From positions 18,377 through 82,376 of the forward strand of contig ONFF01000012.1 in the NCBI GenBank assembly GCA_900317055.1: 64,000 bases of DNA, read 5' to 3'. The position numbers were made by a program, and so were the translations under genes. Positions 1 through 15,135 of the stretch are shown in pieces (position 1 is the first letter of the stretch; each line of letters begins with the position of its first letter). Under the pieces are notes generated by a model. The model was not told where the DNA came from and searched no databases. It saw only the letters and a list, made by a program, of their open reading frames with translations. This stretch comes from an uncultured Bacteroidales bacterium (GTDB lineage: Bacteria > Bacteroidota > Bacteroidia > Bacteroidales > F082).

Positions 1-1058
1 GTCTGGACTACCGTACGGGTGCTGTGATCCCCGCCTTCTCGCCTGGTGAGTTGTATGGTGCCGTGCCGGAGCTGGCCGACATCTGCAACCTCGACACCGA
101 GAAGGTGTTCGCCGTGTTCTCCGAGAACATGTCGCCCAAGGAATACATCGCCCTGGCCAAGAAGATTGGCGAGGAGATCCAAAACGGCATCGACGGCATC
201 GTCATCGGCCACGGCACTGACACCTTGGCCCACACTGCCGCTGCTTTGACCTTCATGTGCCAGAACCTGCCTGTGCCGATTGTCTTGGTCGGCTCGCAGC
301 GTTCATCGGACCGTCCGTCATCGGACGCCGCCTTGAACCTGATGCATGCTATGACGGCTGCCGGTCACGGTGATGTGGCCGAGGTGATGGTCTGCATGTT
401 TGGTCCCACCTCCGATGAGTACGGTTTCCTGCACCGTGGCACTCGTGTGCGTAAGATGCACTCGAGCTATCGCAGCACCTTCCGCACCATCGGTGATACT
501 CCCGTTGCTACCGTCGACCGCAAGCGTGGCGTGGTGCCGATCAAGGAGGTCTACAACCACCGCCGCAACGACCGCGATGTGAAGATCATCCCGACCTTCG
601 ACGACCGCGTGGCCATCCTCTACTACTATCCTGGCATGAAGCCCGATGTGCTTGATGCACTGGTCGACAACGGCTATCAAGGCATCGTGTGGGACGGCAC
701 GGGCTTGGGTCATGTCAACCGTGGCATGTTCGATGCCATCCAGCGTGCCACCGACAAGGGCGTGCATCAGTACATGACCGTGCAGACCATCTGGGGTTAT
801 GCCCACATGTTCGTCTATGACACCGGTCGTGACCTGATGGATAGAGGCATCATCCCCGCTGGCAACATGCTCGCCGAGACCGCCTACATCAAGTTGGGCT
901 GGGCTTTGGGCCAAACGCACGACCGCGAAGAGGTGAAGAACATCATGCTCACTCCAGTCAACAGCGAAATCACCCCGAGAGAGCCTTACAACGGTTACTT
1001 GGTCTACCAAGGCGGAGTGCCCGAGGTGGAGGAGTTTATCCGTAAGGTGCATAAATAA
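1..1058 (+). CDS. gatD: GatD-like Glu-tRNA(Gln) amidotransferase subunit D / type I asparaginase, 5' truncated by window
   Basis: The reading frame is already open at base 3, so the gene begins upstream of the window; about 351 residues are visible. The asparaginase fold shows in HGTDTLAHTAAAL, which carries the second catalytic Thr and its Asp, and in VGSQRSSDRPSSDA, which is typical of GatD rather than of plain L-asparaginases. The first catalytic Thr (GGTIAS region) lies off the edge. In archaea GatD works with GatE to release ammonia from glutamine or asparagine and amidate Glu-tRNA(Gln). Whether a GatE partner lies upstream cannot be seen. A GTG at 24 is only an internal codon. A cytoplasmic asparaginase is the alternative. 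The spacer to the next gene is 59 bp, with no clear terminator. Confidence 0.75.
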   Translation, partial: LDYRTGAVIPAFSPGELYGAVPELADICNLDTEKVFAVFSENMSPKEYIALAKKIGEEIQNGIDGIVIGHGTDTLAHTAAALTFMCQNLPVPIVLVGSQRSSDRPSSDAALNLMHAMTAAGHGDVAEVMVCMFGPTSDEYGFLHRGTRVRKMHSSYRSTFRTIGDTPVATVDRKRGVVPIKEVYNHRRNDRDVKIIPTFDDRVAILYYYPGMKPDVLDALVDNGYQGIVWDGTGLGHVNRGMFDAIQRATDKGVHQYMTVQTIWGYAHMFVYDTGRDLMDRGIIPAGNMLAETAYIKLGWALGQTHDREEVKNIMLTPVNSEITPREPYNGYLVYQGGVPEVEEFIRKVHK

Positions 1059-1117: not shown

Positions 1118-2860
1118 ATGCCATTTTCTGACTTTAAAACCCTGAAACGTCTGTTGAAATCAGACTTGAGTGCTCTGCCAGTGGTAAAAGTGTCTCTGTT
1201 AGGTGATACAGCAACGCAGTTTCTCGCTACAGCCATTCGAGGAACTGGTGTGGAGCGAGGTTATCATATTGACCTCTACGAGGCAGAATACGACCAAGTG
1301 GAAAGACAACTGCTTGACCCAACGAGTGAATTCTATGAGTTCAATGCAGACTTCATTATATTGTTTCAAAGTACGCACAAACTTGGCGAAAACCATGCGA
1401 TGCTCAGCTCGGAACAACAGACCACCTTGGCTGAGGACAGACTCAACTTCGTGGCCTCAGTATGTTCCAATCCTGCCCTCGAAGGCAAAAAGATCATCTA
1501 TTTCAACTATCCTGAGATAGACGATGCCGTGTTTGGAAGCTATGCCAACCATGTGCCACAATCGCTGACGTGGCAAGTGAGACGGCTGAATTGCGGACTG
1601 ATGGATTTGACGCAACAGTACCCGAACCTCTTTATTTGCGATATTGCAGCGCTGCAAAACAAGTTGGGACGCGATGCCATGTTTGCCGCTAATGTTTACA
1701 CCAGCACAGAGATGGTGTTGAGCATGGATGTATTGCCTAATGTTGCGAGCCGAGTGATGGACATCATTTGTGCCGTAAAGGGGCAATTCAAGAAATGCCT
1801 CATTTTGGACCTTGACAACACGGTATGGGGTGGCGTGATAGGCGACGATGGACTTGAAGGCATCCAGCTAGGTCATGGACTAGGCATTGGCAAGGCTTTC
1901 ACTGAGTTCCAGATGTGGGTCAAGAAGCTCAAGCAGCGTGGCATTATCATTTGCGTAGCCTCGAAGAACAATGAAGAGACAGCAAAGGAACCTTTCGAAA
2001 AACACCCTGATATGGTGCTCAAGCTGGACGACATAGCTGTATTCCAAGCCAATTGGGAGACCAAAGTCGATAACATCCGTACCATTCAAAGCATTTTGAA
2101 CATAAGTTTTGATAGCATGGTGTTCTTGGATGACAACCCATTCGAACGGAATATTGTACGCGAGAACATCAAAGGCATCACCGTACCCGAGTTACCCGAA
2201 GACCCTGCTGATTACTTGGAATACCTGTATGGGCTGAATCTATTTGAAACTGCCAGCTACAGTTCTGCCGACAAAGACCGCACGAAGCAATATCAGGTAG
2301 AGGCTCAACGCGTGTCGCTGAGCAAGACTTTCACCAATGAGGCAGACTTTCTCAAGTCGTTGGACATGGTTTCTGTCGTTAGCGGTTTCACCAAATTCAA
2401 CACACCCCGTGTCGCACAACTTACCCAAAGGAGCAACCAGTTTAATTTGCGTACTGTCCGTTACACCGATGCCGACATCGAATCATTCGCATCGGATGCA
2501 GAAGTGATAGACTTGAGCTTCACCTTACAGGACAAGTTTGGCGACAATGGCTTGATCGCTGTCATCATCATGAAGCCGCAGGACAAAGAGACACTCTTTG
2601 TGGATACTTGGTTGATGAGCTGTAGGGTATTGAAACGTGGCGTTGAGAATTTCACTTTGAACACCATGGTGGAGATTGCCAAGTCAAAGGGATACAAGCG
2701 AATCATAGGAGAATACCTGCCAACGCCTAAGAATGGCATGGTGGCGTTGCATTATCCAGAACTTGGTTTCACGCCGATAGAGGGTAGCCCAACTGCCCAA
2801 TGGGTACTCGATTTGGAGAACTATCAGCCCCGCGAGTGTTTTATTGTTGCCAATGAATAA
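1118..2860 (+). CDS. FkbH-like HAD-IIIC protein (putative glyceryl-ACP synthase)
   Basis: The 580-residue protein has the FkbH layout: an SGNH-like N-terminal region (about 1-215), a HAD phosphatase domain with the nucleophile motif DLDNT at 231-235, and a GNAT-like C-terminal part from about 430. FkbH family enzymes take 1,3-bisphosphoglycerate, remove phosphate and load a glyceryl group on an acyl carrier protein. Here it heads an operon with its own ACP (5104-5346). The next gene starts 3 bp after its stop, so co-expression is very likely. Family assignment is firm. The exact acyl product and its use for surface glycan modification rather than polyketide synthesis are inferred from the MBOAT genes downstream and the lack of polyketide synthase genes. 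Confidence 0.85.
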   Translation: MPFSDFKTLKRLLKSDLSALPVVKVSLLGDTATQFLATAIRGTGVERGYHIDLYEAEYDQVERQLLDPTSEFYEFNADFIILFQSTHKLGENHAMLSSEQQTTLAEDRLNFVASVCSNPALEGKKIIYFNYPEIDDAVFGSYANHVPQSLTWQVRRLNCGLMDLTQQYPNLFICDIAALQNKLGRDAMFAANVYTSTEMVLSMDVLPNVASRVMDIICAVKGQFKKCLILDLDNTVWGGVIGDDGLEGIQLGHGLGIGKAFTEFQMWVKKLKQRGIIICVASKNNEETAKEPFEKHPDMVLKLDDIAVFQANWETKVDNIRTIQSILNISFDSMVFLDDNPFERNIVRENIKGITVPELPEDPADYLEYLYGLNLFETASYSSADKDRTKQYQVEAQRVSLSKTFTNEADFLKSLDMVSVVSGFTKFNTPRVAQLTQRSNQFNLRTVRYTDADIESFASDAEVIDLSFTLQDKFGDNGLIAVIIMKPQDKETLFVDTWLMSCRVLKRGVENFTLNTMVEIAKSKGYKRIIGEYLPTPKNGMVALHYPELGFTPIEGSPTAQWVLDLENYQPRECFIVANE

Positions 2861-2863
2861 GTT

Positions 2864-3286
2864 ATGACAATTGCCGAATTAGCAGAACAGACTGGAAAAA
2901 TAGAGCACACTTATCAGGTGAGTCCTGAAGTCTACCACGCATTCCAATCATGCAGTGGCGACTTCAACCCGTTACACACCGATGTGGCTTTTGCCCAAAG
3001 CAAAGGCTTTAACGATTGTGTGATGTACGGCAACATCTTGAATGCCTTTATCAGCCACTTTGTAGGGATGCTGCTTCCGACAAAAGAGGTGATGATTCAG
3101 AGCCAGGACATCAGTTTCCATAAGCCGGTGTTTCTGAATGACCAAATTGCCCTTGAGGCCACTGTAGATACCGTTTCCGAGGCTGTTGGGATCATCGAGT
3201 TTAAACTAAAATTCAGGCGCATAAGTGAAGGTGTAAAACCGGAACTTGTCGCCAAAGGCCATGTGCAGATAGGATTATTAAAATGA
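2864..3286 (+). CDS. MaoC-like hot-dog fold dehydratase/thioesterase family protein
   Basis: The 140-residue protein carries the MaoC/hydratase 2 signature SGDFNPLHTD followed by a conserved Gly-Phe and YGN, the usual active-site segment of (R)-specific enoyl-CoA hydratases and related hot-dog proteins. It is a single-domain protein of normal length. It starts 3 bp after the fkbH-like gene and its last 4 bases overlap the transketolase gene start, so translation is coupled. In this setting it may dehydrate, hydrate or chaperone an ACP-bound short hydroxyacyl group. That role is inference; the fold is well supported. Confidence 0.8.
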   Translation: MTIAELAEQTGKIEHTYQVSPEVYHAFQSCSGDFNPLHTDVAFAQSKGFNDCVMYGNILNAFISHFVGMLLPTKEVMIQSQDISFHKPVFLNDQIALEATVDTVSEAVGIIEFKLKFRRISEGVKPELVAKGHVQIGLLK

Positions 3287-4116
3287 TTGACAAAGAGTTA
3301 ATAAATCAATTGGAGCAGCTTGCCAAAAAGATCCGGGTGGATATCATACGCACTGGATATTTGGCAGGCAAGAATGGTGCCCACTTTGGAGGTAGCCTCT
3401 CCCCTGTTGAGATATTGGCAGTGCTGTATTCCTGCTTTGTCTCTTTCGACAAAAACGATATGGAGCATCGTGACAGGGTTATCCTGAGCAAGGGTCACGC
3501 CGCTTTAGCACACTACTGCACTTTGTATGAATGTGGTATCATGACCAAAGCAGACCTCGACTCATTTGAACAGAACGGTAGTGATATAGTCGCTCATGCG
3601 AAACGAAACTTATCGAGAGGTTTGGATTTCTCTGGAGGCAGCCTAAGCCTTGGCACCTCATATTCCGTTGGCGTTGCCCATGCCTGCAAGCGCAAAGGTC
3701 TTGACAACCATATATATACCCTCATCGGAGACGGTGAAATGAATGAAGGTCTGATCTGGGAAGCACTGATGTTTGCTGGACACAACCGTCTTGACAATCT
3801 CACCATCATTATAGACCACAATCACCTTCAGGCTGATGGCACTATCGAGGAAGTGATGAACACCGCCCCGCTTGAAGACAAACTGAAAGCTTTTGGATTC
3901 GATGTTATTCAGGTAGATGGGCATTCTGTGAGTGAGTTATACGAAGCTTTTAGTCAACAGCCAAATGGCCGTCCAATGGCCATCATAGCAGAAACAGTAA
4001 AGGGCAAAGGCGTTTCATTTATCGAAAACAAAGCCAAATGGCATCACAGCAGCCTAAACGAGGCCCGTTACCAGAAGGCGCTAAAAGATTTAGGAGAGGA
4101 GGTAGAGAATGGCTAA
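3283..4116 (+). CDS. Transketolase N-terminal subunit (TPP-binding half)
   Basis: The 277-residue protein is the N-terminal half of a split transketolase. It has the thiamine diphosphate/Mg2+ motif starting GDG at 149-151 and ending in the Asn region around residue 178, plus the family pieces HFGGSLS and SKGHAA. Transketolases move a two-carbon glycolaldehyde unit between sugar phosphates. This copy sits between a MaoC-like gene (4-bp overlap) and its own C-terminal half (8-bp overlap), next to an ACP gene. That context argues for a dedicated role in making an acyl donor rather than in the pentose phosphate pathway, which is an inference from position only. Confidence 0.88.
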   Translation: MIDKELINQLEQLAKKIRVDIIRTGYLAGKNGAHFGGSLSPVEILAVLYSCFVSFDKNDMEHRDRVILSKGHAALAHYCTLYECGIMTKADLDSFEQNGSDIVAHAKRNLSRGLDFSGGSLSLGTSYSVGVAHACKRKGLDNHIYTLIGDGEMNEGLIWEALMFAGHNRLDNLTIIIDHNHLQADGTIEEVMNTAPLEDKLKAFGFDVIQVDGHSVSELYEAFSQQPNGRPMAIIAETVKGKGVSFIENKAKWHHSSLNEARYQKALKDLGEEVENG

Positions 4117-5074
4117 TATGAATGTTCAACAATATGCTGGCTCCGGACAGGCAGCAGCCATATTTGGGATGTATTTGCCTGACCATATCGAGGAGTACCC
4201 CAATGTACAAGTGCTCTCCGCCGATATGTCGGTAGCAGCCAGCCTTGACCGTTTTATTTATCAAAGCCCCGAAAAATTCACGGAATTAGGCATAGCCGAG
4301 CAAAACCTTGTGGGCATTTCTGCTGGCATGGCCTCAGAAGGCTATACATGTGTGGCTGTTGCCCAAGCCGCCTTCATTACTATGCGAGCCTACGAGATGG
4401 ACCGCCAGTATTTAGGCTATATGCAAAACAAGGTTATCCTTGTCGGTTTGAATTCGGGCTTCTATCTCCAGTATTTTGGTAACACACACTACTGCATAGA
4501 AGACCTGGCCATCATGCGCCAGATTCCTGGCATGACGGTTCTCTCCCCTGCCGATGCGGCTGAAGCCGTCATGGCCTTTGAGGCTGCCCTAAACTGCCCT
4601 GGTCCGGTTTACATCCGACTCACAGGGGGCTCGCAAGCTCCTACGGTTTATCATGAGACTTGCCCGTTTACCATTGGCAAAAACAATATTCTCCGTGAAA
4701 GTCAGGATGTCTGCCTTTTTACCACAGGTGCTTGTACGGGCTACTCCGTCCAAGCCGTGGAAATCCTGTCTCAACAAGGCATAGAAACAAGGCTTGTGGA
4801 TGTCCACACCTTGAAACCATTTGACACCGAGTCTGTTAGAGAAGCCAAAAACTGCAAGTTGATAGTAACGGCTGAAGAGCACAACATAGTTGGCGGTCTT
4901 GGCACTACTATTGCAGACATCTTGGCTGAGGATGGAGGCTATCCACCACTCTTGAAATTGGGTGTCAAAGACCGTTTCTCCAAGCCTGGTGATTATGATT
5001 ATGTGATGCATCAGCACAGGCTCTCGCCTAACCTGATTGCAGAAGACATTAAAAACAAATTACAATCATTATAA
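4109..5074 (+). CDS. Transketolase C-terminal subunit (Pyr and C-terminal domains)
   Basis: The 321-residue protein is the matching C-terminal half. It has the pyrimidine-binding domain with ELGIAEQN, which carries the glutamate that activates thiamine, and the C-terminal transketolase domain from about residue 190. It overlaps the N-terminal subunit gene by 8 bp, so the two should be made in equal amounts as one enzyme. A 29-bp gap then leads to the ACP gene. In other systems (tetrahydroisoquinoline antibiotics such as naphthyridinomycin) TPP enzymes load a C2 unit from a ketose phosphate onto a carrier protein; the same may happen here, but nothing in the sequence proves it. Confidence 0.88.
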   Translation: MANMNVQQYAGSGQAAAIFGMYLPDHIEEYPNVQVLSADMSVAASLDRFIYQSPEKFTELGIAEQNLVGISAGMASEGYTCVAVAQAAFITMRAYEMDRQYLGYMQNKVILVGLNSGFYLQYFGNTHYCIEDLAIMRQIPGMTVLSPADAAEAVMAFEAALNCPGPVYIRLTGGSQAPTVYHETCPFTIGKNNILRESQDVCLFTTGACTGYSVQAVEILSQQGIETRLVDVHTLKPFDTESVREAKNCKLIVTAEEHNIVGGLGTTIADILAEDGGYPPLLKLGVKDRFSKPGDYDYVMHQHRLSPNLIAEDIKNKLQSL

Positions 5075-5103
5075 ATAATTAAGAATCAAAATATTAAATA
5101 GTT

Positions 5104-5346
5104 ATGGAAAGATCTGAAATTTACGAAAAACTCAACGAAATCTTTTGTGATGTCCTGGACTTAGACGAAGTGCATCTCACTGATGCATCCGTTGCCGACG
5201 ACATTGAGGAATGGGACTCCCTAAGTCATATCCAGTTGATTGTGGCTATTGAAAAAGCCTTTGGAATCAAATTCACTTCTCTTGAAATCATGAAGTGGAA
5301 CAATGTGGGCGAGATGGTGAATTCAATCATTGCCAAAAAGCAATAA
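5104..5346 (+). CDS. Acyl carrier protein
   Basis: The 80-residue acidic protein has the phosphopantetheine site EEWDSLSHIQ with the attachment serine at residue 39, and the normal length of a free-standing ACP. It lies between the transketolase pair and the first MBOAT gene (start 3 bp after the ACP stop), so it is probably the carrier on which the acyl group made by the upstream enzymes is held before membrane transfer. This resembles the DltC role in teichoic acid D-alanylation, although the donor here is not an amino acid because no DltA-like adenylating enzyme is present. Confidence 0.92.
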   Translation: MERSEIYEKLNEIFCDVLDLDEVHLTDASVADDIEEWDSLSHIQLIVAIEKAFGIKFTSLEIMKWNNVGEMVNSIIAKKQ

Positions 5347-5349
5347 TCG

Positions 5350-6819
5350 ATGGTTATCAACTCTTTTAGGTTCTTAGCCTTTTTTGCAGTAGTCTTCTTG
5401 GTTTATTTCCTACCGTGGATGCGACAGCGTCACACACGGCAGAATTTATGGCTATTGCTTGCCAGCTATTTCTTCTATGGCTTTGTGGATTGGAAGATGC
5501 TTCCTATCCTATTGGCTATAACGGTGGCATTTTGGTTTTTGGGTGGATTCATTCGCAAGGCCATTGACCGCGGCAATGCAAAAGCTGCTTCACGCTTCAC
5601 CACATTAGGTGTCGTGTTGGGCATAGGGCTCTTGTTCTACTTCAAATACCTGAACTTCTTTGCTGGTTCTTTTGCCAAGCTTCTTAATGCCGTTGGGCTG
5701 CATGTCAGTTGGTCCACGCTGAATATTGTTCTTCCTGTTGGTGTGAGCTTTTTCACTTTCAAGCTTATCAGCTATGTGATTGAAATCCATCGTGAGAAGA
5801 TACAGCCCAGCGAGAACTTCCTGGAGTTTGCCACTTACGTTGCCTTCTTCCCCACCATCATGGCTGGTCCTATCGACCGTCCCGGAAAGTTTCTTCCCCA
5901 GTTGCACCAAGCTCGCCAATTCAACTACAACTTGGCCATGGACGGCTGCCAGCAGATACTTTGGGGTATCTTCACAAAGATGGTCATTGCCGACAGTATA
6001 GCAGTTATTACGCATGGCGCTTGGTCACTTTATCCTGAAAAAACCTCTTGGTACCTGATTTATGCCGCCTTATTGTCGCCGATACAAGTCTACGCCGATT
6101 TTGACGGCTATTCCAACATGGCCATTGGCGTGGGCAAGATTTTGGGTTTCAACATCACCAAGAACTTTGACCATCCTCTATTAGCGCGTAATGTGTCGGA
6201 ATACTGGCGTCGTTGGCACATCTCCCTAACTGGTTGGATCACGGACTATGTGTTCATGCCGCTCAATGTCAGATTCCGCAATTGGGGTAATTTGGGTATT
6301 TTCCTTGCCATCAGTATCAATCTTGTGGTGATTGGCATGTGGCACGGGGCCAATTGGACCTATGTATTGTTCGGAGTATACCACAGTCTGCTTTTCTTGC
6401 CTCTCATACTCAGTGGAAAGTTTGGGAAGAACAAAAAACTCAAACCAGGCCGATGGGGTTGCATACAGTTTAAAGACTTATTGGGGATGATTGGGACCCA
6501 TTTCCTGATGGCTTTTGGTCATATTATCATCTTTTCTGCAGGAGTGCCGTCTATTATCCGACTTTTCTCTTGTATGATTAAGGGAGACTGGTCTTTCGTC
6601 AATCCTTTCTCATTGCTTTCGTGGTATTCCATCTTAGCTATTGTGGTACTGTTGGTCCTGGAATGGTTTACCAGAAACAAAGAATTTGCCATACAACGCG
6701 AGTCTAAAGATTACACGAACAAGACCTTTAGGATCGTTTTCCTCGACATGTTACTGGCTTTGGCCATTGTAATATTTAGTGCTAGTGCTAACGCAGAGTT
6801 TGTTTATTTCCAATTCTAA
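5350..6819 (+). CDS. MBOAT family O-acyltransferase 1 (DltB/AlgI-like)
   Basis: The 489-residue polytopic membrane protein belongs to the MBOAT/DltB-AlgI family. The two conserved active-site histidines are His332 in WHGANW and His345 in GVYHS, and the family block RRWHISLTGW precedes them. DltB-type enzymes pick up an acyl group from a carrier in the cytoplasm and pass it across the inner membrane. This copy clearly differs from the three later ones (it has RNWGN where they have GGSRVSK) and follows the ACP gene directly, so it is the most likely direct partner of the upstream enzymes. The C-terminus ends FVYFQF, like the other three. Confidence 0.9.
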   Translation: MVINSFRFLAFFAVVFLVYFLPWMRQRHTRQNLWLLLASYFFYGFVDWKMLPILLAITVAFWFLGGFIRKAIDRGNAKAASRFTTLGVVLGIGLLFYFKYLNFFAGSFAKLLNAVGLHVSWSTLNIVLPVGVSFFTFKLISYVIEIHREKIQPSENFLEFATYVAFFPTIMAGPIDRPGKFLPQLHQARQFNYNLAMDGCQQILWGIFTKMVIADSIAVITHGAWSLYPEKTSWYLIYAALLSPIQVYADFDGYSNMAIGVGKILGFNITKNFDHPLLARNVSEYWRRWHISLTGWITDYVFMPLNVRFRNWGNLGIFLAISINLVVIGMWHGANWTYVLFGVYHSLLFLPLILSGKFGKNKKLKPGRWGCIQFKDLLGMIGTHFLMAFGHIIIFSAGVPSIIRLFSCMIKGDWSFVNPFSLLSWYSILAIVVLLVLEWFTRNKEFAIQRESKDYTNKTFRIVFLDMLLALAIVIFSASANAEFVYFQF

Positions 6820-6823
6820 TTCA

Positions 6824-7765
6824 ATGTCTATGAAAAGGTTTTTAAAGCTTTTTTGTTTATTCTTGCTGTTTTTTATCTTGACGATTGGCTGTATCCGAAT
6901 GACTTGGATTCTTTTAACCCCGTCTTTCATGGAAAGGAATGTCCTCGACAAGGATATCCATACAATCGTCTTAGGCGGATCCGTTGGAATGTCAGATTGG
7001 AATGATAGCATTATCCCAGGTTCGAAGAATCTCTGTGCTTCTGCAATGACTTTTGGCGGAGCGCTTAACAATCTGAAATGGGCAACTGAATATAACGAAC
7101 ATAAGCCTGATACTGTCATCCTCACTGCTGGTTTGTTGTCGTTGGTCTATTTTTATGACGAAGTGGATATGCGTATGGTACTCTTAAATTGGTCAGAAGA
7201 AAAAAGAAATTTGCTGACCTATCCTGTTTTTTTTGATAACTATAAGCACCTTAAGGATTATTGGGAATACATACTTGTTTCTTTTCCTTATAAGTACTTT
7301 GATGCATACAAAGGCATTGAAGGAGGTTATGTTCCCGATGATGGTAATGAAATCAATAATCCCATTGCCTTAAATCATATCAACTTAGTAATTGAACGTG
7401 CAAAGGAATATGACGGTCAAGGCTTATTATCCGAAGAGTATCTTAAGACCCATTTCACATATCAGCTCAACAATCTTCGTAAGATAAAAGAGTATTGTGA
7501 CGCCCATCAACAAACACTTATTATTTTAAACACCCCATTGTACAAAATACAAGACATGGTGAGTGATAAAGGATATCGACAGTTGATATGTTCGGAGTTA
7601 GGAGATAGTACACTCGTTGCTGAATACACCCGCTTCGAAGTCCCTGATTCAACCTACTATAGGGATTTGGAGCATTTAAATACCAAAGGAGCTTTGTATT
7701 TTGGCGAACATATTGTAAGAGATGGATTACAATTGCAGTATGCAATAGACTATTGCAAGAATTAG
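6824..7765 (+). CDS. SGNH hydrolase-like/DltD-like partner protein 1
   Basis: The ATG at 6824, 4 bp after the MBOAT stop, is preferred over an upstream one inside the MBOAT gene; it gives 313 residues. An N-terminal membrane anchor (about 5-30) is followed by an SGNH-like domain with GGSVG (Ser53) near the start and DLEHLN (Asp281, His284) near the end, so the Ser/Asp/His set is complete. DltD, AlgX and PatB-type SGNH proteins act outside the inner membrane and finish acyl transfer to the glycan. Sequence is AT-rich compared with the MBOAT genes. The substrate is unknown. Confidence 0.7.
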   Translation: MSMKRFLKLFCLFLLFFILTIGCIRMTWILLTPSFMERNVLDKDIHTIVLGGSVGMSDWNDSIIPGSKNLCASAMTFGGALNNLKWATEYNEHKPDTVILTAGLLSLVYFYDEVDMRMVLLNWSEEKRNLLTYPVFFDNYKHLKDYWEYILVSFPYKYFDAYKGIEGGYVPDDGNEINNPIALNHINLVIERAKEYDGQGLLSEEYLKTHFTYQLNNLRKIKEYCDAHQQTLIILNTPLYKIQDMVSDKGYRQLICSELGDSTLVAEYTRFEVPDSTYYRDLEHLNTKGALYFGEHIVRDGLQLQYAIDYCKN

Positions 7766-7766
7766 T

Positions 7767-7798
7767 TTTGTATGATAACGGATTTTTGCCTATTTTTG
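7767..7798 (+). promoter_or_regulatory. Internal promoter before MBOAT 2
   Basis: TTTG at 7767-7770 and TATTTTTG at 7791-7798 are separated by 20 bp and match the Bacteroidota -33/-7 consensus (TTTG, TAnnTTTG). The start codon of MBOAT 2 is 54 bp further on. The 87-bp gap here is by far the largest in the locus, so the three-paralogue MBOAT array can probably be expressed separately from the fkbH to SGNH1 operon. Confidence 0.65.
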
Positions 7799-7852
7799 CA
7801 GCCGAATTCACTCGAAATCTTAATAATAGATACAATTGTCAATTGTGAATAA

Positions 7853-9325
7853 ATGCTGTTCAACTCCATCCAATTCGCAATATTCCTGCCGATAGTCTTC
7901 CTGCTCTATTGGTTTGTCTTTGACAGCTTTATCAAAAAGTCGAAGAACCAGTTGCGCTTGCAGAACGCTTTCGTGGTGATGGCCAGCTATGTTTTCTATG
8001 GCTGGTGGGACTGGCGTTTCCTCCTGCTCATTGCCTTCACCTCCTTCTGCTCGTGGGGCAGCGGGTTGCTGATAGCGAAAGCTGAGACCAGAAAAAAAGC
8101 CAAGACTTGGATGTGGCTGAACATCGTCCTCAACCTCGGCATCCTGGCTCTCTTCAAGTACTACGACTTCTTCGCCTCCGAGTTCGCCGAACTATTCAAT
8201 GTCTCCACGGTTGGCTTGTTGCTGAAAGTGATACTTCCCGTTGGCATCTCGTTTTACACCTTCCAAGCCCTATCCTACTCCATCGACATTTACCGAGGCA
8301 AGATTGAGCCGACCAAGGACATAGTGGCCTTCTTCGCCTTCATCTCATTCTTCCCCCAACTGGTGGCCGGACCTATCGAGAGAGCGACCAACCTTTTGCC
8401 GCAATTCCTGAAGAAGCGCGAATTCGATTACGACAACGCAATTGACGGCATGCGCCAGATATTGTGGGGCCTCTTCAAGAAAATCGTGGTGGCGGACAAC
8501 TGCGCGGTGTTTGTCGACCATGTGTTCTCAAACTACACAAACGAAACCGGAAGCACTTTGCTTCTTGCCGCCATCTTCTTCACCTTCCAAATCTACGGCG
8601 ACTTCTCGGGCTATAGCGACATCGCCATCGGAACGGCCAAACTGTTCGGCATCAAGCTGATGCGCAACTTCAATGTGCCATATTTCAGCAGGGACATCGC
8701 CGAATTCTGGCGCCGTTGGCACATCTCGCTGACAACATGGTTCCGCGACTATGTGTACATCCCACTGGGTGGAAGCCGTGTATCCAAGGCAAAGGTCGTC
8801 AGAAACACTTTCATCATCTTCCTTGTGAGCGGCTTCTGGCATGGCGCCAACTGGACCTTCATCGCATGGGGAGCCTACCATGCTTTCCTGTTCCTGCCAC
8901 TGATATTGACCGGCAAGAACCGCAAATACACCAACCAAGTGGCTGAAGGAAGACGGCTGCCAACATTAAAGGAAACAGGACAGATGCTTTTGACATTCTT
9001 CTTGGCGGTGATGGGGTGGATCATCTTCAGAGCGGAAAGCATCGGACAGGCTTGGGAGTATGTTCGCGGAATGTTGCAATTCGGCACCTTGCGGGCATGT
9101 TATCGGTTCTTTACCTTGCCAGAAATAAGACTAACAAGTTTGTTCGTTGTGATTATGCTAGTTATTGAGTGGTTGCAACGGGATAAACAACATGGATTTG
9201 AAGGGATAGAAAAATTGTATCTCCTTCATAATAAATATCTTAGACCTATATTATACGCTTTATTGTTGCTCTTGATGATGGTTTTCGGAGGGAAGCATGC
9301 ATCCTTTATCTATTTTCAATTCTAA
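7853..9325 (+). CDS. MBOAT family O-acyltransferase 2
   Basis: The 490-residue polytopic membrane protein carries the MBOAT catalytic region with RRWHISLTTWFRDY and FWHGANW (His330), followed by GAYH. The first about 375 residues are nearly the same as in the MBOATs at 10248 and 12730, while the last about 110 residues are unlike them except for the final FIYFQF. It should transfer an acyl group from a cytoplasmic carrier across the membrane. The partner gene starts 12 bp downstream. Substrate and acyl group are unknown; the locus ACP or the fatty-acid ACP could serve as donor. Confidence 0.9.
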   Translation: MLFNSIQFAIFLPIVFLLYWFVFDSFIKKSKNQLRLQNAFVVMASYVFYGWWDWRFLLLIAFTSFCSWGSGLLIAKAETRKKAKTWMWLNIVLNLGILALFKYYDFFASEFAELFNVSTVGLLLKVILPVGISFYTFQALSYSIDIYRGKIEPTKDIVAFFAFISFFPQLVAGPIERATNLLPQFLKKREFDYDNAIDGMRQILWGLFKKIVVADNCAVFVDHVFSNYTNETGSTLLLAAIFFTFQIYGDFSGYSDIAIGTAKLFGIKLMRNFNVPYFSRDIAEFWRRWHISLTTWFRDYVYIPLGGSRVSKAKVVRNTFIIFLVSGFWHGANWTFIAWGAYHAFLFLPLILTGKNRKYTNQVAEGRRLPTLKETGQMLLTFFLAVMGWIIFRAESIGQAWEYVRGMLQFGTLRACYRFFTLPEIRLTSLFVVIMLVIEWLQRDKQHGFEGIEKLYLLHNKYLRPILYALLLLLMMVFGGKHASFIYFQF

Positions 9326-9337
9326 AATGGAAATACT

Positions 9338-10246
9338 ATGAAACGGTTTCTTTGGGCTATTGTTATAGGAGGTATTGCTTTTTTTGTGTTATGTGGAGCT
9401 GTGGAGTTCTACCAATCACGAGTTGACAACAATTATTCCTACAAGTATTGGTATATGGAAAACCATCGTCATGAAGTGGTAACTTTGCTTCTGGGAGACT
9501 CATATATAGAGAATGCCATTAACCCAGGTTTGATGGGAAAAGGAACATTTAATTTGGCCAGGTCTTCCCGCTGGATTTATTATGACGACAAATTGCTGGA
9601 AAAGTATATTGCTGACATGCCCAATTTAAAGCAGGTGATCTTGGGAATGGGCTATAAGCCCCCGTATTTTAAATCGTATCATTATCCTGAATCAGAAAGT
9701 AATGAGCCAGAAATGAATGAGCATGAAAAGTATATGTACGAGAAATTCATGCATATTCGATATGATGACAATTCAAACCATTGGTTAGGACTGTATAGAG
9801 GCTATATTGACCCCGGCACACTGATTGGCAATAATCTTTTATGTGATTCATTAGGCTATGAACGTGTCGATGGCCAGTCTGTTAATTGGCGATTGGAACA
9901 CAATGTAGATTCAAATGTGTTTCACCAAAAATATGCCAAAGAACAAGTAGCAGAATACACTGGCTATTTAAAAGACATGGCAAGATTGTGTCATCTTCAT
10001 AAGGTTCGTTTTATAGTCATCACCCCCCCCTGCCATGATTCATACATTGTTAATGTCAGGCAGGAAGGTCTTGACATAATACATGGAATAATCGAGAATG
10101 TCCGTTCTGAGTATCCCATAGAATATATTGATTATTTGCAAGATGAAGAATATCGTGCTGATTCAATTTATCGTAATTGTTCCCACCTGAATTCCATAGG
10201 TGCCGATATATTCGCTCTGCGTGTGAAAAAAGATTTTGGTTTATAA
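9338..10246 (+). CDS. SGNH-like partner protein 2 with altered catalytic Asp
   Basis: The 302-residue protein has an N-terminal membrane anchor (about 4-23), the SGNH block with GDS at 53-55 (LLLGDSYIEN) and a C-terminal block NCSHLNSIGA. The residue expected to be the catalytic Asp is Asn280, three before His283. The gene is AT-rich and contains a run of eight C at 10023-10030 that encodes part of TPPC; a slip there would break the frame. It lies between two MBOAT genes (12 bp after one, 1 bp before the next). A role in periplasmic acyl transfer or glycan binding is inferred by position and fold. Confidence 0.65.
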   Translation: MKRFLWAIVIGGIAFFVLCGAVEFYQSRVDNNYSYKYWYMENHRHEVVTLLLGDSYIENAINPGLMGKGTFNLARSSRWIYYDDKLLEKYIADMPNLKQVILGMGYKPPYFKSYHYPESESNEPEMNEHEKYMYEKFMHIRYDDNSNHWLGLYRGYIDPGTLIGNNLLCDSLGYERVDGQSVNWRLEHNVDSNVFHQKYAKEQVAEYTGYLKDMARLCHLHKVRFIVITPPCHDSYIVNVRQEGLDIIHGIIENVRSEYPIEYIDYLQDEEYRADSIYRNCSHLNSIGADIFALRVKKDFGL

Positions 10247-10247
10247 T

Positions 10248-11699
10248 ATGCGTTTCAATTCCATCCAATTTGCAATATTTCTGCCAATAGTCTTCCTGCT
10301 CTATTGGTTTGTGTTCGACCGCTTCATCAGCAAATCGAAGTGGCAGTTGCGCTTACAAAACGCCTTCATTGTTGTGGTCAGCTATATTTTTTATGGCTGG
10401 TGGGACTGGCGATTCTTGCTACTCATTGCCTTCACCTCGTTTTGTTCATGGGGTAGCGGGTTGCTCATAGGAAAAGCAAAAACCAAGAAAAAGGCCAAGA
10501 CATGGATGTGGCTGAACATCGTCCTCAACCTGGGCATATTGGCTCTTTTCAAATACTACGACTTCTTTGCTACAGAGTTCGCCGAACTATTCAACCTCTC
10601 CACAGATGGTTTATTATTAAGGATCATCCTCCCAGTAGGTATTTCGTTCTACACCTTCCAAGCCTTGAGTTATTCAATAGACATTAATAATGGCAAGATT
10701 GAGCCGACCAAGGACATTGTAGCCTTCTTTGCGTTTATATCGTTCTTTCCTCAATTGGTGGCTGGCCCCATCGAAAGGGCGACAAACTTGTTGCCGCAAT
10801 TCCTAAAGAAGCGCAAGTTCGACTACGACACCGCCATTGACGGCACGAGGCAAATACTTTGGGGTCTGTTCAAAAAAATTGTGGTGGCCGACAACTGCGC
10901 GACATTTGTCGATCAGGTGTTTTCTACTTACCCGGAACAAAGTGGAAGCACCCTGTTTCTTGCCGCTGTCTTATTCTCTTTCCAGATTTACGGTGACTTC
11001 TCGGGCTATTCCGACATCGCCATAGGTACAGCAAAACTGTTCGGAATCAAGTTGATGCGAAATTTCAATGTCCCATACTTCAGCCGTGACATCGCTGAGT
11101 TTTGGCGCAGATGGCATATCAGTCTGACGACCTGGTTTCGCGACTATGTCTACTTCCCCATGGGTGGTAGCCGCGTCTCAAAGGCCAAAATCGTAAGAAA
11201 CACCTTCGTCATCTTCCTTGTGAGCGGATTTTGGCATGGTGCCAACTGGACCTATATCGCATGGGGAGCATATCATGCCATCCTTTTCCTACCATTGATA
11301 CTCTTAGGGAAGAATCGAAAGTACCGTAACATCGTGGCGGAGGACCGTTTCCTGCCTACCATTAAAGAATGCTTTCAGATGATGCTGACCTTCTTACTCG
11401 TCGTATTAGGCCGTGTTCTTTCCCGATCTAGAAGCATCGGTCAGGCTTGGGAGTATTTTTGCGGGATGTGCAATGAGAGTCTTTTCACCAAGCCTTTTTT
11501 GTATGCTGGCACGAAAAGGACAATGCTGCTAATCGCAGTGATGCTTATTATTGAGTGGATTACAAGGCGAAAAGAGCATGCCTTACAATATGGCCCTAAA
11601 ATTCCATCTTGGTTGGCTTGGATTTTTAGTGCGGCGATAGTATTGATTATTTTAGAGTACGGTGGCAATAGCCAGTCATTCATATATTTCCAGTTCTAA
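10248..11699 (+). CDS. MBOAT family O-acyltransferase 3
   Basis: The ATG at 10248 is chosen because MRFNSIQFAIF then lines up with the starts of its two paralogues; an in-frame TTG at 10236 lies inside the previous gene. The 483-residue protein keeps RRWHISLTTW, FWHGANW and GAYH. One segment is odd: where MBOAT 2 and 4 have GWIIFRAE just before SIGQ/TIGQ, this copy has GRVLSRSR (around 11408-11431), placing charged residues in what is otherwise a membrane helix. It may be a diverged or weakened enzyme. The partner gene follows 2 bp after the stop. Confidence 0.88.
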   Translation: MRFNSIQFAIFLPIVFLLYWFVFDRFISKSKWQLRLQNAFIVVVSYIFYGWWDWRFLLLIAFTSFCSWGSGLLIGKAKTKKKAKTWMWLNIVLNLGILALFKYYDFFATEFAELFNLSTDGLLLRIILPVGISFYTFQALSYSIDINNGKIEPTKDIVAFFAFISFFPQLVAGPIERATNLLPQFLKKRKFDYDTAIDGTRQILWGLFKKIVVADNCATFVDQVFSTYPEQSGSTLFLAAVLFSFQIYGDFSGYSDIAIGTAKLFGIKLMRNFNVPYFSRDIAEFWRRWHISLTTWFRDYVYFPMGGSRVSKAKIVRNTFVIFLVSGFWHGANWTYIAWGAYHAILFLPLILLGKNRKYRNIVAEDRFLPTIKECFQMMLTFLLVVLGRVLSRSRSIGQAWEYFCGMCNESLFTKPFLYAGTKRTMLLIAVMLIIEWITRRKEHALQYGPKIPSWLAWIFSAAIVLIILEYGGNSQSFIYFQF

Positions 11700-11701
11700 C
11701 G

Positions 11702-12706
11702 ATGAAAAGGTATTTAATCAAAATATTACTCTTTATTGGTCTTCCAATACTTGTTTTGTTGGCTGTGTATTACATTACCGATCCGTTTAAGACATTGCGT
11801 CCCTTTAGTTTACAATACTTTGATGACACCAATCGGGACTATCTTTCAACGGAATTGTTTTTGCGGAACGATTCGGTGTATCACTACAATTCTTTCATTT
11901 TTGGAAGCTCCAGATGCTGTGGCTTCAATACATACCATTGGAAACATTACCTTCCGGAGGGGTCTAGGCAGTTTATGTTTCAAGCCTGGGGAGAAACCTT
12001 AACGGGCATTGAGCAGAAAATCGATTACATAGACCATAATGGAAATGAAATCAAAAATGCATTAGTGTTGTTCGACATTCCTGGCACTTTTGCAAAAGAG
12101 CAATTACCGAAATCCGTTGTGAAAATAAAGGATTATAAGTTTTCAGGACAATCAAAACTAGCCTATCACTCTAATCTGTTTTACCAATTTTCCCAAAAAC
12201 CATCTAAATGGATTTCTTCTGTAATACAGTTCAGTAGCCATACGACGAAAGAGTTCCCTGTTGATTCTGTCAGTAATGATTGGGGAACAAAAATGAAAAA
12301 TATTGACATAAGCCGTCAACCTAAAAAAGATAGTCTGTCAAATTGCACTGCCAAATCCAAAACTATTTTTCTGAAACAGATTGAACATAAAACAGACGAT
12401 GACATACTAGAAAGCGAGCCTTTGATAAACGAAGAGTTTTATAAGCAATTGACTCATATCAAAGATGTTTTCGACAAACATCATACTGATTATAGAATTG
12501 TGATTTCACCTGCTTATTGTTATACACATCCTACGATAAATGCTGATGATTTGACAATTCTTCAGGAAATATTTGGGAAAGACAAGGTGTTTAATTATTC
12601 GGGAAAGAATGATATGACAACAGATTGCTATAGCTATTCAGATCCCAATCACTTTGGATTAAGCGTGGGATGGCATATCATTGAAGATATTTATAACAAA
12701 CAATAA
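11702..12706 (+). CDS. SGNH-like partner protein 3
   Basis: The 334-residue protein starts 2 bp after MBOAT 3. It has an N-terminal membrane anchor (about 4-25), then FIFGSSRCCGF with the putative nucleophile Ser70, and ends with SDPNHFG holding Asp314 and His317, so the Ser/Asp/His set appears complete. The middle part shares no clear similarity with the other three partners. It is AT-rich. By analogy with DltD, AlgX/AlgJ and PatB it should act in the periplasm on the same glycan as MBOAT 3. The substrate cannot be told from sequence. Confidence 0.65.
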   Translation: MKRYLIKILLFIGLPILVLLAVYYITDPFKTLRPFSLQYFDDTNRDYLSTELFLRNDSVYHYNSFIFGSSRCCGFNTYHWKHYLPEGSRQFMFQAWGETLTGIEQKIDYIDHNGNEIKNALVLFDIPGTFAKEQLPKSVVKIKDYKFSGQSKLAYHSNLFYQFSQKPSKWISSVIQFSSHTTKEFPVDSVSNDWGTKMKNIDISRQPKKDSLSNCTAKSKTIFLKQIEHKTDDDILESEPLINEEFYKQLTHIKDVFDKHHTDYRIVISPAYCYTHPTINADDLTILQEIFGKDKVFNYSGKNDMTTDCYSYSDPNHFGLSVGWHIIEDIYNKQ

Positions 12707-12729
12707 CACAAAAACATCATTAGGCCTGT

Positions 12730-14178
12730 ATGCTCTTCAACTCCCTCCAATTCGCGATATTTCTGCCGATAGTCTTCCTGCTCTATTGGTTCGTTTTCGA
12801 CCGCTTCATCAGCAAGTCGAAGTGGCAGTTGCGATTGCAAAACGCCTTCGTCGTGGTGGCAAGTTATGTGTTCTACGGTTGGTGGGACTGGCGTTTTTTG
12901 CTGTTGATTGCTTTTACCTCTTTCTGCTCGTGGGGCAGCGGAATACTCATCGGGAAGGCCGAATCGAAGAAAAAAGCCAAAACCTGGATGTGGATAAACA
13001 TTGTGCTCAACCTTGGCATTCTGGCTCTTTTCAAGTACTACGACTTCTTCGTCTCAGAGTTTGCCGAGCTGTTCCATATCTCTACTGATGGCTTGTTGCT
13101 GAAAGTGATACTCCCAGTAGGCATCTCCTTCTACACCTTTCAAGCCTTATCCTACTCAATTGATGTCTATCGGGGCAAGATTGAACCGACAAAGGACATC
13201 GTGGCTTTCTTCGCATTCATTTCGTTCTTCCCTCAACTGGTGGCCGGCCCTATCGAGCGCGCGACGAACCTCTTGCCGCAATTCCTGAAAAAGCGCGAAT
13301 TCAATTACGACAACGCTGTTGACGGAATGCGACAGATACTTTGGGGCCTGTTCAAGAAGATTGTGGTGGCCGACAACTGCGCGGTGTATGTCGACCAGGT
13401 GTTCTCGACCTATACGGGGCAAAGTGGAAGCACTTTGCTCCTTGCAGCCATATTCTTCACTTTCCAGATTTACGGTGATTTCTCAGGCTATAGTGACATC
13501 GCAATAGGAACGGCAAAGCTGTTCGGTATCAAGCTTATGCGTAACTTCAATGTGCCGTATTTCAGCCGAGACATCGCAGAGTTTTGGCGCAGGTGGCACA
13601 TCTCGCTCACGACATGGTTCCGCGACTATGTCTACATCCCTTTGGGCGGAAGCCGTGTATCAAAGGCGAAGGTTGTCAGGAACACATTCATCATCTTCCT
13701 TGTGAGCGGCTTCTGGCATGGTGCCAATTGGACCTTCATCGCTTGGGGAGCATATCATGCCATCCTTTTCTTGCCGTTGATTTTGACTGGCAAGAACCGC
13801 AAATACACGAACCAAGTGGCTGAAGGAAGATGGCTGCCTTCGCTCAAAGAGGTTGGGCAAATGCTTCTGACTTTCTTCTTGGCGGTGATAGGGTGGATCA
13901 TCTTCAGGGCAGAAACTATTGGACAGACTTGGGAGTATATCTGCGGAATTTGTAATCGTAGTCTATTCACTATTCCGGCAGCGAAAGGTTTTTCCGCATT
14001 GGGGTTAAACATCCTTCTATTGATTATTGTGGAATGGATTCAGCGCGACAAGTCGTTTATTTTGGATTTGTCCTCAATCAAAAAAGGCTATTTGAGGTGG
14101 ACGGCTTATCTCGCCTTGTTGTTTGTCTTGTTTGCCTTTGGAGGTCATGCTACCAATTTCATTTATTTCCAATTCTGA
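12730..14178 (+). CDS. MBOAT family O-acyltransferase 4
   Basis: The 482-residue membrane protein is closest to MBOAT 2 over the first about 400 residues, including RRWHISLTTWFRDY, FWHGANW and GAYH, and diverges from it only in the last about 90 residues before FIYFQF. It starts 23 bp after the previous gene and is followed 3 bp after its stop by its own SGNH-like partner. The very high similarity of the cores and the abrupt loss of similarity near the 3' ends point to duplication or gene conversion of the core with exchange of the tail plus partner gene. Confidence 0.9.
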   Translation: MLFNSLQFAIFLPIVFLLYWFVFDRFISKSKWQLRLQNAFVVVASYVFYGWWDWRFLLLIAFTSFCSWGSGILIGKAESKKKAKTWMWINIVLNLGILALFKYYDFFVSEFAELFHISTDGLLLKVILPVGISFYTFQALSYSIDVYRGKIEPTKDIVAFFAFISFFPQLVAGPIERATNLLPQFLKKREFNYDNAVDGMRQILWGLFKKIVVADNCAVYVDQVFSTYTGQSGSTLLLAAIFFTFQIYGDFSGYSDIAIGTAKLFGIKLMRNFNVPYFSRDIAEFWRRWHISLTTWFRDYVYIPLGGSRVSKAKVVRNTFIIFLVSGFWHGANWTFIAWGAYHAILFLPLILTGKNRKYTNQVAEGRWLPSLKEVGQMLLTFFLAVIGWIIFRAETIGQTWEYICGICNRSLFTIPAAKGFSALGLNILLLIIVEWIQRDKSFILDLSSIKKGYLRWTAYLALLFVLFAFGGHATNFIYFQF

Positions 14179-14181
14179 GTT

Positions 14182-15135
14182 ATGCGTAAGTTCATTATTA
14201 AGTCTTTGTGTCTCGGATTGTTAGTTTTATCTTTTGCGATTGCATTAGACTATATGATAAGCATGGGACTTCGTCGGACTGATTGTTATAGGTATCAGGT
14301 ATTTAATGATATTTTCAAAGACAATTTGGACTATGATATGCTCTTTATGGGTAATTCGAGAAGCTTTATGCATTTCAACCCACGGATTATCGATTCCATT
14401 TGTCATGTTAATTCATACAATTTGGGATTGGGAGGCTATGCCATTAAAACACAAATATCTGAATATCATTGCTATAAAGCGCATAATGGAACTCCAAAAA
14501 CAATCGTTCAACAAGTTGATTTTATGACTCTGAACATGGAAGAAGACATCAGACACCAACACGATTCTGAACGCTTTTTCCCGACTGTTTATGATAAGAC
14601 CATGCGCGGAGAATTGAAACAACTTGGTTACGGCTTTTGGGAATTGTACTGCCCGTTGTATAGGTACAATGGTTATCAAAAAGTAATCAAAGACGGTCTA
14701 TTAGAGTATTTGGGAATAAAGCATTATGTTGAAAAGCCTGCATATAAAGGCTATAGACCAAAAAAAGGATTATGGAATGGGAAAAACGTGGCTTCGATGG
14801 ATTCAATTAACTCATTGATGAATGAAAAGGCGATCGCTTTGTTTGAAGGATACCTTGACGAGTGCAAAAATGATGGTGTATATGTGTTGCTGGTCAACTC
14901 CCCAGTTTATTCACAAACCACAAAAAAAGTGAAAGATTTGGATAAGCTAAACCACTATTTTGATAGCATTGCCCAAAAATATGGATTTAAGTATTTGAAT
15001 TATACCGAAAACTACCCTTTGTGTGACGACACTTTGAATTTTTGCGTTTCGGTTCACATGAATTCAGTGGCAGCAGATAGGTTTTCAACAGATTTTGCGA
15101 ACGATCTCATTTCTCTTGGTTTAATATCCAAGTAA
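14182..15135 (+). CDS. SGNH-like partner protein 4 with altered catalytic Asp
   Basis: The 317-residue protein has a membrane anchor (about 5-24), an SGNH block with FMGNSRSF (Ser59) and LGLGGY behind it, and a C-terminal block ending CVSVHMNS. His292 is in place but the residue three before it is Val289 rather than Asp, so the usual triad looks incomplete. It starts 3 bp after MBOAT 4 and ends the surface-acylation locus; no clear terminator hairpin follows. Sequence is AT-rich, in contrast to the mce gene downstream. Function is inferred from the MBOAT pairing. Confidence 0.62.
   Translation: MRKFIIKSLCLGLLVLSFAIALDYMISMGLRRTDCYRYQVFNDIFKDNLDYDMLFMGNSRSFMHFNPRIIDSICHVNSYNLGLGGYAIKTQISEYHCYKAHNGTPKTIVQQVDFMTLNMEEDIRHQHDSERFFPTVYDKTMRGELKQLGYGFWELYCPLYRYNGYQKVIKDGLLEYLGIKHYVEKPAYKGYRPKKGLWNGKNVASMDSINSLMNEKAIALFEGYLDECKNDGVYVLLVNSPVYSQTTKKVKDLDKLNHYFDSIAQKYGFKYLNYTENYPLCDDTLNFCVSVHMNSVAADRFSTDFANDLISLGLISK

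Follow-up and report, generated by a model that had tools for sequence, protein, structure and literature searches.

The 64,000-nucleotide stretch of DNA analysed here (the window), from contig ONFF01000012.1 (assembly GCA_900317055.1) of an uncultured, gut-type Bacteroidales bacterium of the family F082, contains a putative surface-acylation cassette in which fkbH, maoC, tktN, tktC and acp very probably constitute one donor pathway, based on an acyl carrier protein (ACP) and feeding the acyltransferase pair MBOAT1/SGNH1. The tight spacing of these five genes is among the supports for a single pathway. The strongest evidence that the cassette enzymes act together is their content, because the same genes were found in different orders and on different backbones. 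The chances are about even for the full explanation, in which FkbH, MaoC and a split transketolase (TktNC) would form the pathway and MBOAT1/SGNH1 its export arm.

Gene content and proposed pathway

All genes named in a first-pass annotation, which had been made from the letters of the window, were present with open frames in a run on a single strand (the forward strand), in the order fkbH, maoC, tktN, tktC, acp, MBOAT1, SGNH1 and three further MBOAT/SGNH pairs, ending at position 15135. The fkbH gene (1118..2860) encodes a full-length FkbH-like protein of 580 amino acids with an FkbH_N and a HAD-IIIC/FkbH domain, and is followed after 3 bp by maoC (2864..3286), encoding a MaoC-like (R)-hydratase/dehydratase. 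The N-terminal, thiamine pyrophosphate (TPP)-binding half of the split transketolase is encoded by tktN (3283..4116), which overlaps maoC by 4 bp, and the C-terminal half by tktC (4109..5074), which overlaps tktN by 8 bp; acp (5104..5346), encoding an ACP of 80 amino acids with a DSL phosphopantetheine site, begins after a gap of 29 bp. The gaps of 3 and 29 bp, the overlaps of 4 and 8 bp and the four MBOAT/SGNH pairs were as the annotation had described them.

The FkbH protein matched FkbH_N in Pfam (PF21211, 5e-85) and TIGR01686 in NCBIfam (8e-86, 288 bits against a cut-off of 147), contains the DxDNT motif as DLDNT, and aligned over residues 4-384 with BF1531 of Bacteroides fragilis (PDB 3slr, E 4e-170), while the ACP matched PP-binding (Pfam, 3e-9). 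FkbH proteins with a stand-alone ACP form glyceryl-ACP from bisphosphoglycerate, according to PMC7489565, and from this family knowledge the FkbH of the window is predicted to load glyceryl onto the ACP from 1,3-bisphosphoglycerate. A near FkbH relative (71% identity) with an ACP was also found on a contig labelled Treponema (L083); either the gene left Bacteroidota by horizontal transfer or the contig was binned wrongly.

In the proposed pathway, MaoC would remove the 3-hydroxyl group of glyceryl-ACP, and the enol product would be pyruvoyl-ACP. In a common type of sister cassette, a short-chain dehydrogenase/reductase (SDR) would reduce the pyruvoyl carbonyl to give lactyl-ACP. In the window, TktNC would take the place of the SDR and extend the MaoC product with a two-carbon ketol unit drawn from a ketose. 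Addition at the C2 carbonyl, in the manner of acetolactate synthesis, would yield a branched C5 acid; alternatively, addition to the enoyl form at C3 would yield a linear 3-deoxy C5 acid. The resulting hydroxylated C5 acyl-ACP would be the donor for MBOAT1/SGNH1, and in relatives with an additional SDR the new ketone would be reduced. By analogy with described pairs, MBOAT1 would take the acyl group from the ACP and place it on a Tyr of its own, within the C-terminal FxYxxF motif, from which SGNH1 would pass it to a periplasmic or surface glycan.

Conversion of glyceryl-ACP to pyruvoyl-ACP by MaoC is moderately favoured, and the case for C2 addition by TktNC on pyruvoyl-ACP is evenly balanced. 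We put forward more tentatively, at somewhat less than an even chance, the proposal that the TPP enzyme lengthens the ACP-bound pyruvoyl group by a C2 unit from a ketose of central metabolism, giving a C5 polyhydroxy-acyl ester within a module-swapping, combinatorial donor system. To our knowledge, such an ester is not known from bacterial glycans. The analyses described below support the first-pass suggestion that a single ACP-based pathway makes a small hydroxylated acyl group and hands it to an MBOAT/SGNH pair. The putative role of MaoC as branch point and the swapping of modules were not recognized in that annotation.

Recurrence of the cassette and exchange of modules

A scan of 173 genomes of the family identified an FkbH relative at E 0.001 or better in 23 of them, and close relatives besides that of the window were found only in G104 (98%), G126 (97%), G168 (56%) and, as a remnant, G076. 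The same cassette is present in G126 and, spanning two contigs, in G104, with three and two MBOAT/SGNH pairs, respectively, compared with four in the window. In G076 the cassette has decayed (L028:6387-8462); by sequence reading, the first part of fkbH runs into an apparent MBOAT tail, followed by two SGNH-like pieces.

For a wider comparison, 85 FkbH loci, comprising the best 80 of 318 relatives from a scan of named genomes together with L027, L029, L030, L032 and L123, were typed by the genes located within 3.5 kb of fkbH. Two of the loci, L034 and L035, apparently duplicate G104 and G126, and the FkbH tree was built without these two and without L030 and L032. The compared loci share an fkbH-acp-MBOAT-SGNH backbone with exchangeable modules: no module in 33 loci, VOC in 26, maoC and SDR in 16, VOC and methyltransferase in four, tkt, maoC and SDR in three, tkt and maoC in two, and maoC, SDR and methyltransferase in one. 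Genes for VOC (glyoxalase-like) proteins and methyltransferases occupy the module position, lying either between fkbH and acp or next to them (L042, L046, L047, L060, L092, L101 and others).

Module types required 29 changes on the FkbH tree, compared with 41.5 in shuffles and a minimum of 6, and modules therefore appear to be partly inherited and often changed; L040 and L046, for example, have almost the same FkbH (path 0.024) and differ in their modules (maoC and SDR in the former, VOC in the latter). This pattern suggests that the enzymes shaping the acyl group have been swapped repeatedly between fkbH-acp-MBOAT backbones.

The genes fkbH, maoC, tktN, tktC and acp were found together in four FkbH backgrounds, namely the window group (window, G126 and G104), Prevotella RUG515 (L061), Hoylesella marshii (L082) and G912 (L123), and the FkbHs of these four lineages do not group on the FkbH tree. 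Conservation of gene order, which the first-pass annotation had proposed as a test of one pathway, held in part: two further species of the genus share the order, Prevotella RUG515 and H. marshii share it with an additional SDR gene, and in G912 the same genes are rearranged as tktN-tktC-SDR-fkbH-acp-maoC-MBOAT. Strict order was dropped as a test, since order changes in this locus and content does not. At E 1e-70, a threshold that misses further diverged enzymes, TktC was matched in 6 of 99 genomes of the genus, 6 of 393 of the order and 1 of 395 of the phylum, the own genome being counted in each, so that the phylum sample held no other case; the corresponding count for the family of G951, with G951 included, was 6 of 399.

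A simpler possibility is that FkbH and the ACP make a plain glyceryl (or lactyl) donor, and that MaoC and TktNC have a side role or act on a free small molecule. Such a donor would suit the commonest class of FkbH locus, in which none of the sought modules was found (33 of 85), but the recurrence of maoC with tktNC on ungrouped FkbH backbones and in rearranged order argues against it, and we consider it rather unlikely for the window.

MaoC as a putative branch point

The MaoC protein gave a family match in Pfam (7e-14) and aligned with 1iq6. D-x(4)-H is the catalytic motif of MaoC (R)-hydratases/dehydratases; it is present in the window within an intact D-x-N-P-L-H motif (D-F-N-P-L-H), which is conserved in all 22 aligned proteins (the window and 21 loci; L043 gave no open reading frame (ORF)). 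Among the 85 loci, maoC was found in 22, every one with an SDR gene or tktNC beside it, and SDR genes (>100 bits) in 20, every one with maoC beside it. The module slot is filled as fkbH-maoC-[tktNC]-acp-MBOAT in the window and as fkbH-maoC-[SDR]-acp-MBOAT in sister Prevotella loci. Because the MaoC of the window is closer to those of eight cassettes with maoC and SDR (71-74% identity; L036-L040, L052, L054 and L057) than to those of L061 and L082 (61% and 58%), the arrangement in the window looks like a replacement of the SDR gene by tktNC. The simplest reading is that MaoC is the branch point and that SDR and TktNC are alternatives acting on its product, since an SDR needs a carbonyl, a TPP enzyme needs a carbonyl or enoyl acceptor, and pyruvoyl-ACP would offer a carbonyl.

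The split transketolase

TktN (277 amino acids) matched Transketolase_N (2e-34), and TktC (321 amino acids) matched Transket_pyr (4e-25) and Transketolase_C (1.5e-21) in Pfam; the solved chain nearest to TktN was a split transketolase, 6yak (E 9e-58). The TPP-binding GDG...N motif and the Glu of GIAEQ (GIAEQN in TktC) are kept in the two halves, which scored 243 and 190 bits and missed the NCBIfam cut-off for a full transketolase (488 bits), as expected because the enzyme is split. In TktC, the canonical GEDG substrate loop of transketolase and DXS is replaced by QYFG. All 14 rows of the TktC clade, several of which are near copies, lack GEDG, but a further split transketolase encoded in the genome has retained it, as have the solved chains in the alignment. 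The acceptor sugar is contacted by the Asp of GEDG, and because the loop is lost, the acceptor of TktNC is probably not an aldose phosphate.

On the TktC tree, the proteins of the four fkbH-type lineages make up a single clade (100/99), which unstarred branches place among TktCs from other acyl clusters. These sister clusters, at glycan loci (L124, L125, L126, L127, L128, L186, L187 and L188), encode an AMP-ligase along with tktNC; most also have SDRs and an ACP, and the aldehyde-making enzymes LuxE/LuxC or ketosynthase III (KSIII) are encoded in some. No FkbH was seen in the stretches read of these loci. Their contents suggest that, during acyl assembly, a C2 unit is added to aldehydes or ketones. 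Two papers that make no mention of a transketolase report sets of LuxE, LuxC and ACP in flagellin glycosylation islands (PMC4875605, PMC7874193). The flagellar acyl group of Treponema denticola was considered as a precedent and did not prove useful as one.

The first-pass annotation had also proposed that the TPP enzyme loads the ACP to give glycolyl. A thioester can be formed from a TPP-bound C2 unit only with an oxidant such as a lipoyl group, and the 754 amino acids of DinS include a lipoyl/E2 part. No lipoyl protein is encoded in the cassette, and it is unlikely that TktNC loads a C2 ketose unit onto the ACP as in naphthyridinomycin and dnacin, with the glyceryl made by FkbH as a second acyl group. 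In favour of such loading, KSIII and an ACP are encoded beside related tktNC genes in L124, L127 and L187, and for dnacin the proposed loaders of a hydroxyethyl unit are two-component transketolases beside an ACP and KASIII (PMC7570522). According to the same source the large subunit DinS has 754 amino acids, far more than TktN or TktC, and glycolyl loading would leave MaoC, which is present in all four tkt lineages, unexplained; glycolyl-ACP was therefore set aside as the main route. Another possibility is that a free acid or sugar acid, extended by C2, is the product of TktNC and is then put on the ACP by FkbH or another ligase, so that the ACP-bound group itself would undergo no chemistry. 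The AMP-ligases of the sister clusters, which would load a free acid, speak for this, but none was seen in FkbH-type cassettes and the substrate described for FkbH in PMC7489565 is bisphosphoglycerate, and we consider it quite improbable.

Observations weighing against the proposed pathway

Several points weigh against a pathway in which TktNC acts on a MaoC product. For MaoC, many hot-dog proteins of this family hydrate rather than dehydrate their substrates. The restriction of SDR genes to loci with maoC hangs on the 100-bit threshold and has an exception in L098, where a weak SDR match (29% identity) lies directly before fkbH and maoC is missing. The presence of maoC in all four tkt lineages, compared with 17 of 80 non-tkt loci, speaks in favour of the pathway (Fisher p of 0.003), but this p is indicative only, since lineages were compared with loci that include many near relatives. 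The tkt-type MaoCs do not form one group (3 changes on the MaoC tree), and maoC therefore did not travel as one unit with tktNC. Unlike L061, L082 and L123, the window has no SDR gene beside tktNC, and a search of its own genome identified no dedicated SDR, the best candidate having 36% identity to the SDR of L061; the product would therefore stay a ketone or need a housekeeping reductase.

The FkbH tree is weak in part, with 25 of 79 inner branches under 80, and the branch joining the fkbH-type TktCs to two other acyl-cluster TktCs (93/95) was not starred. Sampling of the tkt lineages was thin: the window was the starting point, L061 and L082 came from the FkbH scan, and L123 came from a TktC search built on the others. 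In addition, no description of a TPP enzyme that uses a 2-oxoacyl group carried by an ACP was met in searches of open PubMed Central.

The MBOAT/SGNH pairs

MBOAT1 (5350..6819) begins 3 bp after acp and is followed by the gene for its membrane-anchored partner SGNH1 (6824..7765), the first ORF start of which is at 6779, the ATG at 6824 being more likely. The remaining pairs, also on the forward strand, are MBOAT2 (7853..9325) and SGNH2 (9338..10246), MBOAT3 (10236..11699, with an ATG at 10248 also possible) and SGNH3 (11702..12706), and MBOAT4 (12730..14178) and SGNH4 (14182..15135). MBOAT1 and MBOAT2 matched the Pfam MBOAT family (2e-15 and 1e-29), and MBOAT3 and MBOAT4 were assigned to it through their 77% and 85% identity to MBOAT2. 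All four end in a C-terminal FxYxxF motif (FVYFQF in MBOAT1, FIYFQF in MBOAT2-4), as do all 95 MBOATs examined; this shuttle motif has been shown to carry the acyl group in PatA, according to passages of PMC12148441. Against the NCBIfam DltB model MBOAT1 scored 168.9 bits, below the cut-off of 375, and no DltA-like gene was found among the cassette genes.

A tree was constructed from 95 MBOATs, those longer than 420 amino acids from 84 of the 85 FkbH loci (L034 was left out) and from seven other loci. A row was scored as ACP-linked if an ACP gene lay upstream in the same gene run, and the dividing branch was picked as the one best parting the two kinds. On the side of MBOAT1, 66 of 67 rows lie behind an ACP in the operon, with the exception of L074, which has no annotated acp. 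The 28 rows on the mostly not ACP-linked side of MBOAT2-4 comprise three from the window array, six ACP-linked, five that follow an ACP with another MBOAT in between, and 14 that follow none. The six ACP-linked rows are L029, L095, L099, L110, L112 and L173, the last in the genus of the window. A smaller tree (27 chosen loci and 9 others, with a 60 bp adjacency rule) had one side almost free of ACPs, and the claim on the MBOAT2-4 side was softened because of these six rows in the larger tree.

In view of the 66 ACP-linked rows among 67 on its side, MBOAT1 most probably uses the product of the cassette; with only 6 of 28 rows ACP-linked on their side, MBOAT2-4 and SGNH2-4 are probably a separate neighbouring array using another donor, such as acyl-CoA. 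The idea that all four pairs are one unit, as the first-pass annotation had assumed, is weakened by this tree, which makes a division likely without proving it, and by the presence of such pairs at the same site, between gatD and mce, without the cassette in other species. MBOAT2-4 are mutually 77-85% alike, and SGNH1-4 only 18-24%, as anticipated for SGNH partners that differ in the acceptor they select.

The SGNH label of the four proteins, drawn from motifs and structure models, is the weakest part of the assignment. SGNH1-3 had no Pfam match at 0.01, and the sole NCBIfam match among the four was that of SGNH2 to TIGR02171 (31.9 bits against a cut-off of 544). A GxS motif and a late His motif are present in each, with an Asp three residues before the late His in SGNH1 and SGNH3 and not in SGNH2 and SGNH4. 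Structure models were of low confidence (mean pLDDT 50.7 for SGNH1 and 47.2 for SGNH4), and neither gave a Foldseek match at E 0.001. For SGNH1, GDSL/SGNH enzymes took ranks 1-5 (E 0.02-0.07), with FtsZ chains of comparable E next in the ranking, and its sequence had no real match among solved structures; for SGNH4, rank 1 was an unrelated aldolase (probability 0.08) and rank 2 thioesterase I (probability 0.75, E 0.08).

In H. marshii, a gene for an AT3-like acyltransferase comes after the ACP gene, in what appears to be a polysaccharide cluster; the genes there were labelled as AT3, flippase and glycosyltransferase from reading the sequence, and the AT3-like protein had no NCBIfam match.

The gatD-mce site

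The cassette and the array are flanked on the left by the 3' part of gatD (24..1058) and on the right by mce (15288..15704), both on the forward strand and outside the proposed pathway. The family of gatD was scored on the 99% identical copy in L172, and mce, encoding an epimerase/glyoxalase-like protein, was named from its gene context. Among the best 30 of 91 matches to this site, i.e. the nearest species of the genus, gatD lies 134-182 bp before mce in seven loci, an MBOAT gene lies between them in eight (the window included), and other reading frames are found in the rest. Judged from these comparisons, the gatD-mce interval is a variable site for, among others, surface-acylation genes. 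In G112 (L173:1656-4370), acp, KSIII, MBOAT and SGNH genes take the place of the FkbH cassette, and the MBOAT falls on the MBOAT2-4 side of the tree.

To the left of the cassette, gatE precedes gatD (window 24-1058; L172:11489-14832; L178), an archaeal-type Glu-tRNA(Gln) amidotransferase in a Bacteroidales genus. In L172, gatD (TIGR02153, 497 bits) and gatE (TIGR00134, 380 bits) both scored over the cut-off, and gatE was under that of NF003107 (433 against 456). GatE searched against its own genome at E 0.001 matched only itself, and no GatB-like second copy was seen.

Relation to known systems and biological meaning

The Dlt system (DltA-DltC-DltB-DltX-DltD), which D-alanylates teichoic acids, resembles the proposed pathway in its carrier-bound donor, MBOAT, Tyr shuttle and SGNH partner; according to PMC12148441, Dlt uses a carrier protein and other MBOAT/SGNH pairs are said to use acyl-CoA. 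The cassette differs in that its donor would be built by FkbH, MaoC and TktNC rather than DltA, the shuttle motif is fused to the MBOAT, and the host is a member of the Bacteroidales. PatA/PatB-type O-acetyltransferases likewise pair an MBOAT ending in FxYxxF with an SGNH protein that is not fused to it, but their donor is acetyl-CoA and the same source describes such pairs as working without a carrier protein, whereas on the tree MBOAT1 falls on the ACP-linked side. MBOAT2-4 may themselves be PatA-like.

In bryostatin-type starters, FkbH, an ACP, a dehydratase and a ketoreductase give lactyl, and the maoC and SDR sister cassettes have a similar set, although their free-standing enzymes would feed an MBOAT and the window has TktNC in the place of the reductase; no paper supporting the lactyl precedent was found in open PubMed Central. 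Two-component transketolases for C2 loading (NapB/NapD, DinS/DinU) are also split TPP enzymes beside an ACP, but the cassette has no large or lipoyl-bearing subunit and contains MaoC and FkbH. Acetohydroxyacid synthase adds a TPP-bound C2 unit to the ketone of a pyruvyl group, the type of reaction proposed here, and differs in the family of the TPP enzyme and in the acceptor, which here would be ACP-bound. FkbH glycerate pathways (tetronates, methoxymalonyl-ACP) share FkbH and a stand-alone ACP that give glyceryl-ACP, as passages of PMC7489565 describe, but the cassette has no polyketide synthase and its product is predicted to be esterified to a glycan.

Among titles and the starts of abstracts in open PubMed Central, subscription papers being outside this scope, no description was found of an fkbH-maoC-tkt-acp-MBOAT locus, papers on FkbH with polysaccharides included, and no open paper there was found for 'split transketolase'. 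The MBOAT/SGNH pairs described in passages of PMC12148441 carry acetyl or D-alanine. If the proposed pathway is true, tailored hydroxy-acid esters would be assembled by way of a carrier protein, and one branch would include a new TPP reaction. The pathway would also give testable predictions of ACP masses and ester types for many Bacteroidota, largely from the rumen, whose surface glycans are poorly known, and it suggests that these bacteria may vary their surface by swapping acyl-donor modules.

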